This document shows positions 1-818 of a stretch of 64,000 nucleotides of DNA, piece by piece. The stretch is from Bacteroidota bacterium (lineage in GTDB: Bacteria > Bacteroidota > Bacteroidia > AKYH767-A > 2013-40CM-41-45): contig SHNE01000001.1 in the NCBI GenBank assembly GCA_004295015.1, positions 1-64,000 of the forward strand, in the 5' to 3' direction. The notes under the pieces were generated by a model. It had not been told where the DNA came from. It worked only from the letters and a program-made list of their open reading frames with translations, and searched no databases. Position 1 is the stretch's first letter; every line of letters starts with the position of its first letter. Position numbers and translations under genes: made by a program.

Positions 1-37
1 GCCAGCTGGCGGACGTGATTCGAGTTAGAAAATATAG

Positions 38-73
38 TGCGGGGTGGAGCTTTGGTAGCTCGTTGGGCTCATA
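38..73 (+). pseudogene. Truncated initiator tRNA, 5' half
   Basis: This piece matches the intact tRNA at 114-150 from the first acceptor base to the base after the anticodon CAT, apart from a small change in the D-loop (one base shorter). It stops there and runs straight into the 16-bp palindrome at 74-89. The 3' anticodon stem, variable loop, T-arm and acceptor 3' strand are missing; only a faint echo of the T-loop (TTCGAGT) follows at 94-100. It cannot fold into a tRNA on its own. Confidence 0.85.
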
Positions 74-89
74 TCCGCCAGCTGGCGGA
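74..89. repeat. 16-bp perfect palindrome, copy 1
   Basis: TCCGCCAGCTGGCGGA equals its own reverse complement. It sits exactly at the break point of the truncated tRNA, directly after the base that follows the anticodon. The same 16 bases occur at 575-590, a right-hand part at 1-13, and a degenerate form at about 749-764. I see no copy elsewhere in the window. Confidence 0.9.
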
Positions 90-113: not shown

Positions 114-186
<73 letters not shown>

Positions 187-205
187 CCTAAGTACAAGAG
201 TAAAA

Positions 206-250
206 ACAAAGCGGGTGAACGGTCAAAAACTGTTCACCCGCTTTGTTTCT
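206..250 (+). terminator. Hairpin terminator after the initiator tRNA
   Basis: A 15-bp perfect stem pairs 206-220 with 232-246 around an 11-base loop, followed by a short T-rich stretch. It lies 20 bases after the tRNA and before the GIY-YIG gene, so it probably ends the tRNA transcript. Confidence 0.75.
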
Positions 251-309: not shown

Positions 310-555
310 ATGTTCACCGTCTACGTTTTGCACTCAGAAAGTCACCAAAAAATCTACATTGGGTATACCTCTAATTTAGATGCCAGATTTGAATCCCACA
401 ACCTCCTTGCCAAAAAAGGTTGGACAATCAAATTCAGGCCGTGGAAAATTGTTCACACCGAAATCTTTCAATCAAAGTCTGAGGCTATGAAAAGAGAAAA
501 AGCACTCAAATCTGCTAAAGGAAGAGAGTTTATTTGGAAATTAATTTCAACCTAA
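310..555 (+). CDS. Small stand-alone GIY-YIG endonuclease-family protein
   Basis: The 81-residue protein has the full GIY-YIG signature: Y5-V6-L7 and Y16-I17-G18, the catalytic Arg R26 in the segment NLDARFESH, and a Glu (E63) in KREKALK at the position of the metal-binding Glu of the family. It matches the short UvrC-N-like class that consists of the nuclease domain alone. Family members cut DNA by a one-metal mechanism, but the cellular role of these small bacterial versions is mostly unknown. It starts at the first ATG, with no obvious Shine-Dalgarno. Its position is striking: the intact and broken tRNA 5' pieces lie on its left, and palindrome copy 2 with a tRNA 3' piece begins 19 bases after its stop. 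A role in moving or maintaining the palindrome-tRNA unit is my inference from this layout. Confidence 0.85.
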   Translation: MFTVYVLHSESHQKIYIGYTSNLDARFESHNLLAKKGWTIKFRPWKIVHTEIFQSKSEAMKREKALKSAKGREFIWKLIST

Positions 556-567
556 AAAAAACGCGAA

Positions 568-618
568 GCTCATATCCGCCAGCTGGCGGACGTAGGTTCG
601 AGTCCTGCCCTCGCTACC
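568..618 (+). pseudogene. tRNA fragment interrupted by the palindrome (copy 2)
   Basis: Seven bases of the initiator anticodon arm (GCTCATA, 568-574) are followed by the perfect palindrome at 575-590 and then by the tRNA 3' part at 591-618, which matches the intact tRNA from the last variable-loop base to the acceptor end with one change. Compared with the intact gene, exactly ten bases (the last anticodon-loop base, the 3' anticodon stem and most of the variable loop) are replaced by the 16-bp palindrome. The left junction is identical to that at 73/74. The 5' acceptor and D-arm are absent here. Confidence 0.85.
575..590. repeat. 16-bp perfect palindrome, copy 2
   Basis: Identical to 74-89. 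Here it is flanked on both sides by initiator tRNA sequence, so it behaves like an insertion or replacement at the anticodon arm. Confidence 0.9.
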
Positions 619-626
619 TAAGGTAA

Positions 627-818
627 GTGTGAGTTTGAGGTTTGAGTGTGGAGGAATGGTATTCCTTGAGACTTAGATTTTAACTCACATTTTTTGTGAA
701 GCATTTTTTGTGCAGAATCGTGCTCCTTAGTTTAAATTAAATCAAGGTTGGATCAGCCGGTGGATCTAGGTTCGAGCACTTCACACTAATGCAGGTGTGA
801 GTTTGAGGTTTGAGTGTG
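627..818. repeat. Diverged tandem copy of palindrome/tRNA 3' piece with a 24-base direct repeat
   Basis: A 24-base sequence at 627-650 recurs exactly at 795-818. Before the second copy, 754-774 aligns base for base with the palindrome right half plus tRNA T-arm start at 580-600, matching in 17 of 21 positions by eye. The stretch 575-650 therefore appears duplicated at about 749-818, with decay of the palindrome and T-arm but not of the 24-base repeat. Bases 651-748 and 819-958 show nothing I recognise; a 64-codon frame at 810-1004 has no coding features. Confidence 0.7.

Follow-up and report, generated by a model that had tools for sequence, protein, structure and literature searches.

A small GIY-YIG nuclease gene of the UPF0213 type, together with a hairpin palindrome specific to its clade, probably constitutes a widespread selfish element that resides at tRNA loci and works much like the phage endonuclease SegB, as judged from the sequences compared here. 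This arrangement recurs throughout the Bacteroidota at tRNA genes of almost every kind, which points to a mobile element of wide distribution.

The initiator tRNA locus and its genome

The window, the whole stretch of 64,000 nucleotides analysed here, comprises the opening 64 kb of contig C3 in a genome of 3.86 Mb and 56 contigs. Its left end carries the sole full-length initiator tRNA-Met found in this genome, assigned as initiator by the GGG/CCC anticodon stem, together with broken copies of the same tRNA, a nuclease gene and the palindrome TCCGCCAGCTGGCGGA, which occurs twice where the shuffle expectation is 0.05 (Table 1).

Table 1. Features of the initiator tRNA locus, in window coordinates (t, position in the tRNA)
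Feature	Position	Strand	Remark
Palindrome copy, 3' three quarters	1..12	+	Truncated by contig start; missing side present on C44, in the same repeat
tRNA-fMet 5' copy (t1-37)	38..73	+	Broken past the anticodon loop
Palindrome TCCGCCAGCTGGCGGA	74..89	.	Within broken 5' tRNA copy, directly after CTCATA
Intact initiator tRNA-Met(CAT)	114..188	+	
Terminator-like inverted repeat	204..248	.	Arms of 20 nt, 95%; interval between tRNA and nuclease gene
GIY-YIG nuclease, 81 aa	310..555	+	UPF0213 type
GCTCATA, tRNA-fMet anticodon-loop piece	568..574	+	Before second palindrome
Palindrome TCCGCCAGCTGGCGGA, second copy	575..590	.	
tRNA-fMet 3' copy (t48-75)	591..618	+	96% identical
Probable decayed second 3' tRNA piece (CAGCCGGTGGATCTAGGTTCGAG)	754..776	+	

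A preliminary description of this locus had reported a complete 81-residue GIY-YIG protein with intact catalytic residues, located 19 bases ahead of the second palindrome, and this is borne out. Position 555 is the last base of the stop codon and 575 the first of the palindrome, the translated product matches PF01541 (E=1.9e-17), and all ten residues that are invariant in an eight-member alignment (V4, Y5, Y16, G18, R26, H30, T39, A59, E63 and K67) are kept, so that the catalytic set is intact. The left flank also proved to be as described, with a broken 5' copy, a palindrome and one full tRNA. The right flank was said to hold 3' pieces only; the 3' copy and the probable decayed piece, after which the 33 nt that adjoin the first 3' piece are repeated, agree with this, but the anticodon-loop stretch GCTCATA precedes the palindrome and the right-hand piece is therefore not purely 3'. 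Likewise, the palindrome does adjoin the 3' piece to which it was thought to be joined, but it sits within broken tRNA copies.

Group I introns occur in bacterial tRNA genes and GIY-YIG enzymes occur among such introns, while islands and phages that integrate into tRNA genes by tyrosine recombinases leave one intact tRNA and a displaced tRNA end. Insertion into a tRNA gene with the tRNA restored is typical of both, and a degenerate form of either, with its other parts lost, was considered as an origin of the element. This is extremely improbable in light of an Rfam scan of the window that returned two tRNAs and nothing else, of units that measure ~300-500 bp, with one ORF of ~80 aa, in a compact layout recurring phylum-wide, and of pieces that are the host's own tRNA sequence. 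For the window itself a group I intron was rejected, there being no Rfam intron match and an intact tRNA present, as was an integrase element, since the interval from the intact tRNA to the 3' piece holds the 81-aa ORF only.

Contig C44 terminates in the 76-bp repeat of the window, composed of a 5' tRNA half, the palindrome and CGTGATTCGAG..., and its era-like gene reads away from the tRNA; it is therefore very probable that C44 and C3 adjoin each other in the genome and that the repeat caused the break between them. Since C3 starts at the first base of the window and C44 ends in the same repeat, the 5' array extends beyond what is visible in the window. This genome has two further small GIY-YIG genes, and each lies downstream of a tRNA gene and on its strand. 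One locus reads tRNA-Lys, terminator, GIY-YIG, palindrome CCCGCCTTAGCGGG and tRNA-Lys 3' half (L019), and the other, on contig C10, tRNA-Ser followed by GIY-YIG (L020). Between the two genes of the latter, at 230-390 of the locus, degenerate ~35-bp repeats (GTCGCCATAGCAACATTTCGTTGCGTAGGCGA) are found. A nuclease-free 98-bp tandem of an elongator tRNA-Met 5' half and TCCGCCGGCTGGCGGA occupies the right end of contig C11 (L017); the intact elongator tRNA-Met is located elsewhere. Six of the seven palindromes of the window genome are within tRNA-Met copies, and a role of the palindrome as a general REP of this genome was rejected on these grounds.

The alleles of relatives permit a comparison with the window. 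A genome of the same family has the order era, tRNA-fMet, der with a tRNA that is 100% identical and no pieces (L192), and der is immediately downstream of tRNA-fMet in L195 and L200 as well. A locus of the same genus (L194) has a D-loop palindrome in a 5' piece, and in L193 and L199 the 3' pieces contain TCCGCCGCGGCGGA or TCCGTTAGTTGACGGA where the window has its palindrome; a nuclease is missing from all three. The sequence past the displaced 3' piece in the window was considered as native tRNA flank and this was dropped, as it is GTGTGAGTTTGAG-like, of low complexity and recurs in L197. By its gene content the genome belongs to the Bacteroidota, as the ORFs of the window, by reading, include GldL/GldM-like proteins and a T9SS-type repeat protein. 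The gene of the latter (1010-2827), with four 120-aa repeats corresponding to 360-bp direct repeats, separates the displaced tRNA 3' piece from der.

Linkage to tRNA genes, unit layouts and the nuclease

Small GIY-YIG genes were surveyed in the window's order, in named genomes and across the phylum, and the loci were then annotated for tRNAs and tRNA pieces. The order and phylum searches, positive in 28 of 34 genomes and in 92 of 148 genomes (E≤1e-8), respectively, are less biased sets than the 80 loci from named genomes, which are biased to one clade because they were found with a closer alignment (A3). A tRNA on the same strand within 400 bp was present at 177 of 224 small GIY-YIG loci (77/79 in named genomes, 59/69 in the phylum and 41/76 in the order, the last figure in part because repeats break contigs), and on the opposite strand at none in each of the three sets. 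The control gene uvrC, which also encodes a GIY-YIG protein, had a nearby tRNA in 0 of 30 cases in the genomes of the same order. The accumulation of tRNA pieces and palindromes next to related GIY-YIG genes, as proposed from the window, is overwhelming. In the phylum sample a tRNA or tRNA piece was found at 63 of the 69 loci. A sister clade within this family of proteins, present in the same genomes, showed no tRNA linkage. Chance or an assembly artefact as the source of the pattern was ruled out by the shuffle expectation, by the uvrC control and by a single-contig genome (G266).

The GIY-YIG genes accompany sixteen tRNA identities: Met (both kinds), Lys, Arg, Ala, Val, Asp, Asn, Ser, Leu, Gly, Pro, Cys, Gln, Glu, Phe and His. 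The hosts in the named set include Flavobacteriia, Bacteroidales, Cytophagales, Chitinophagaceae, Saprospiraceae, a Chlorobiota bin, Candidatus Scalindua and a Colwellbacteria bin. Elements of this kind were observed at L146, L168, L179 and L182, in Candidatus Scalindua, a Planctomycetes bin and the Colwellbacteria bin, and the Scalindua and Planctomycetes copies are at tRNA-Val with a class-A palindrome. These occurrences suggest either transfer between phyla or binning error.

Two layouts recur as mirror images of each other, one with a broken 3' copy and the other with a broken 5' copy. In layout I an intact tRNA, a terminator and the GIY-YIG gene are followed by tRNA[x-~55], palindrome and tRNA[56-end]; in layout II tRNA[1-~22], palindrome and tRNA[23-~36..55] precede the GIY-YIG gene and the intact tRNA, and the nuclease stop codon often abuts or overlaps the tRNA 5' end. 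Broken copies extend from t1 to t31-70 on the 5' side and from t13-t58 to the end on the 3' side. The palindrome is inside the broken copy, in the D loop or at the D-stem border, in the anticodon or variable arm or in the T loop, with positions t9-12, 17/18, 21-23, 26/27, 35/36, 42/43, 55/56 and 61/62. Both layouts and the empty fMet sites are consistent with an insertion that duplicated tRNA sequence, as the preliminary description had suggested.

The 184 pieces at 105 loci are 94.8% identical to the intact tRNA of their own host and 79.7% to the same tRNA elsewhere, and the own-host match at least equals the best other match for 164 of them. This higher own-host identity indicates that the pieces were copied from the resident tRNA or that gene conversion keeps them alike to it. 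An import of tRNA halves with the element, in the style of genomic islands, is disfavoured since the pieces match the host's own tRNA.

Whole units are found in tandem at L125, L134, L135, L156, L257, L284, L303, L308, L314 and L315. In the single-contig genome the arrays are [Ser t1-16-GIY]x3 and [Pro t1-28-GIY]x3, with one intact tRNA each, and the arrays examined keep one intact tRNA with the exception of L285, which has two. At L286 (G192:C34:5800-10800) eight tandem GIY-YIG genes are spaced by ~365 bp with hardly any recognisable tRNA.

The nuclease has the properties of UPF0213/COG2827, namely a single GIY-YIG domain, a length of ~80-100 aa and BH0048 and EF2693 as best relatives (1zg2, E=2e-16, and 1ywl, E=7.5e-15). 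The AlphaFold model of the window protein (pLDDT 92.9) has UPF0213 BH0048 (1zg2) and Slx1 as its nearest solved folds, in agreement with the sequence matches. Slx1 is a structure-specific nuclease of branched DNA. Median dN/dS values of 0.06-0.22 across six groups show that the protein is under purifying selection.

Such strong purifying selection, the presence in 92 of the 148 phylum genomes and the tRNA that is left intact would also be expected if the nuclease and the tandem pieces served the host by maintaining, amplifying or regulating tRNA genes as a non-selfish dosage control, and the amplification of tRNA-Tyr by SegB has an adaptive use (PMC13096335). A host function is nonetheless quite improbable, given that the arrays examined multiply the nuclease and the broken pieces while the intact tRNA, L285 excepted, stays single. 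Patchy presence, empty sites in close relatives, many decayed copies and the many different tRNAs targeted also speak against it.

Palindrome classes, nuclease clades and dispersed copies

A tree of 137 proteins was built from 79 columns, and many of its forks are unresolved. The window protein groups with those of L043 and L067 (SH-aLRT 95), which come from two other families, are sited at tRNA-Met genes and share TCCGCC..GGCGGA. The tRNA amino acid changes 28 times on the tree and at least 54 times in 200 shuffles, and from this difference fidelity to the target with occasional switches between tRNAs is evident. Palindrome class changes 7 times, compared to 10 times or more in 500 shuffles that stayed within tRNA amino-acid classes, a comparison in which the class of palindrome is partly confounded with tRNA type and host lineage, nearly all loci outside the window's order being of class A. 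Classes A to E coexist within that order. At Met, Val, Leu and Ala loci the palindrome differs according to the nuclease clade. Palindrome class thus tracks nuclease clade rather than tRNA type, and the view of the 16-bp TCCGCCAGCTGGCGGA as the palindrome of the element holds for the Met-tRNA nuclease clade, but other clades have other palindromes.

Class A (CCyGCC...GGCrGG) is represented by 49 insertion sites in 25 distinct contexts. The tRNA resumes at the very next base in 47 of the 49 and the joint is ambiguous by a G in two, in a scan that favours clean joints because it allowed a discontinuity of at most 3 bases. GA follows the palindrome in 13 of the 25 distinct contexts versus a GA frequency of 6.5% in tRNAs. 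In other classes tRNA bases are replaced by the palindrome, 3 at Leu, 9 at Ala (L047) and 10 at fMet; the fMet palindrome is accordingly not a clean insertion, which counts against the SegB-like reading.

Palindromes are also found away from nuclease genes. The class C palindrome TCCCGATAGCTATCGGGA / TCCCGATAnnTATCGGGA is dispersed in intergenic DNA of some genomes of the order, with 67 copies in G005, 34 in G029 and 16 in G020, and the reversed control gave 0. The 19 copies of G005 that were examined (L228-L246) are intergenic with no tRNA or tRNA piece nearby. In these three genomes TCCCGATAGCTATCGGGA has the appearance of a REP-like family, of which some copies are in terminator loops (L240) or simple repeats. 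A further observation concerns G063, where a class-A palindrome occurs four times in a longer, unrelated interspersed repeat with no tRNA (L186, L188-L190). At L247 (G007:C1:1774300-1775500) six 5' pieces of 66 bp lie in tandem ahead of tRNA-Trp; all six have TCCCGATAGCTATCGGGA in their D loop, and the vicinity contains no GIY-YIG gene. Since palindrome-bearing tRNA copies without a nearby nuclease gene are found here and at L017, L193, L194 and L199, the nuclease either acts in trans or is dispensable. The dispersed TCCCGATAnnTATCGGGA copies and L247 together argue that palindromes can spread with no nuclease gene in cis.

These observations invite an explanation in which the palindrome, REP-like, is the primary mobile unit, the GIY-YIG protein is a RAYT-like mobiliser acting on single-stranded DNA hairpins, and tRNA genes are favoured only as loop-formers. 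The tracking of nuclease clade by palindrome class, palindromes inserted cleanly and with no target duplication, the dispersal of TCCCGATAGCTATCGGGA, including the 19 copies remote from tRNA, and the Slx1-like fold all fit this explanation. We regard it as unlikely, since dispersal is no general property: the consensus of class A, which is almost absent outside tRNA loci, turned up in 2 of the 119 genomes from the class and stood near background in 10 genomes rich in the nuclease, the palindromes of the window genome are, with one exception, in tRNA-Met copies, and G029 has its 34 copies with no nuclease match. The position of the nuclease gene itself at tRNA genes would also be left unexplained. 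The SegB-like and the REP/RAYT-like models may both be partly true.

Palindromes promote replication slippage, and every unit is flanked by direct repeats. Slippage could yield the same tandem duplications with no nuclease required, and the nuclease-free arrays L017, L199 and L247 conform to this. If the pieces had arisen at structured tRNA genes by such slippage or by unequal crossing-over, the GIY-YIG gene would be a trapped passenger, of which the 177:0 strand bias, clade-specific palindromes, fidelity to tRNA type and low dN/dS are not expected; this explanation is very unlikely.

Proposed mechanism and relation to known systems

Under the preferred SegB-like model, the nuclease would introduce a break at a loop, either in the tRNA gene itself or in its single strand when folded, and recombinational repair would install the nuclease gene and the palindrome while duplicating part of the tRNA. 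Through this duplication at insertion one functional tRNA would always be left. The palindrome would be recognised by the nuclease and may mark, block or protect the cut copy, and arrays would grow by re-cutting of the regenerated intact copy or by unequal recombination between direct repeats. The working mode would be that of a free-standing homing endonuclease at a tRNA locus, as in phage SegB, but on a chromosome.

If this is true, an element in ~60% of the sampled phylum genomes has been overlooked inside the most conserved genes of the cell, and the unstudied UPF0213 family gains a role. The element would account for the broken copies of tRNAs and for contigs that break at tRNA genes, and would place a second, GIY-YIG-based case of nuclease/palindrome coevolution beside REP/RAYT. 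An essential single-copy gene such as that of the initiator tRNA would further provide a direct test of how a selfish nuclease survives. A full-text search of open-access papers found no prior description of a GIY-YIG/palindrome element at tRNA loci, and no mobile-element or tRNA role for UPF0213 was found in the open-access literature searched.

The closest parallel is SegB, a free-standing GIY-YIG homing endonuclease of the phage T4/T6 tRNA gene cluster (PMC13096335; Brok-Volchanskaya et al. 2008 cited therein). In T6, cutting and recombination drive the tandem amplification of a segment of tRNA-Tyr and segB (PMC13096335). Here too a GIY-YIG gene adjoins tRNA genes of many isotypes, tandem segments of tRNA and nuclease have joints of tRNA 5' end to nuclease 3' end, and, as befits a system of the SegB type, the nuclease gene lies beside a conserved target gene and relatives hold nuclease-free alleles. 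SegB, however, is a phage gene whose cleavage has been shown experimentally, whereas the present element is chromosomal. The nuclease is also only ~80 aa and, by structure match, UPF0213/Slx1-like rather than I-TevI-like, and there are palindromes inside the broken tRNA copies. The extra DNA-binding region beyond the catalytic domain is absent, as the GIY-YIG match spans residues 2-72 of 81 and no other domain scored above the cut-off. A plasmid collection searched with a relative (L021) gave no match, and a phage collection searched with the window protein gave distant matches only.

With UPF0213/COG2827 (BH0048, EF2693) and Slx1 the nuclease shares its best sequence and fold matches and its single GIY-YIG domain, but the sister clade within UPF0213 is away from tRNA genes in the same genomes. 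An intact tRNA with a displaced tRNA end is reminiscent of tRNA-integrating islands, from which the element differs: it lacks an integrase and has a single small ORF, its pieces are copied from the tRNA of the host itself and occur in both 5' and 3' versions, and its palindromes lie in loops. Group I introns share the tRNA loop as insertion site and the GIY-YIG enzymes, but the window has no intron and the tRNA beside the element is intact and uninterrupted.

REP elements are palindromes served by a REP-associated tyrosine transposase (RAYT) of the HUH/Y1 type. The likeness lies in a small nuclease gene flanked by cognate palindromes, the type of which tracks the enzyme clade and which are dispersed in some genomes; the enzyme here is, in contrast, a GIY-YIG protein and not an HUH/Y1 transposase, and its palindromes are mostly in tRNA copies, with dispersal in few genomes only. 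We tentatively suggest, as a possibility to be held with some reserve, that a single-domain GIY-YIG protein and its cognate hairpin, in ~300-500 bp, form a class of minimal prokaryotic mobile element of their own, a specialist of essential tRNA genes that would target cloverleaf loops, copy the host tRNA and always spare one tRNA, combining features of homing endonucleases and of REP/RAYT while being neither.
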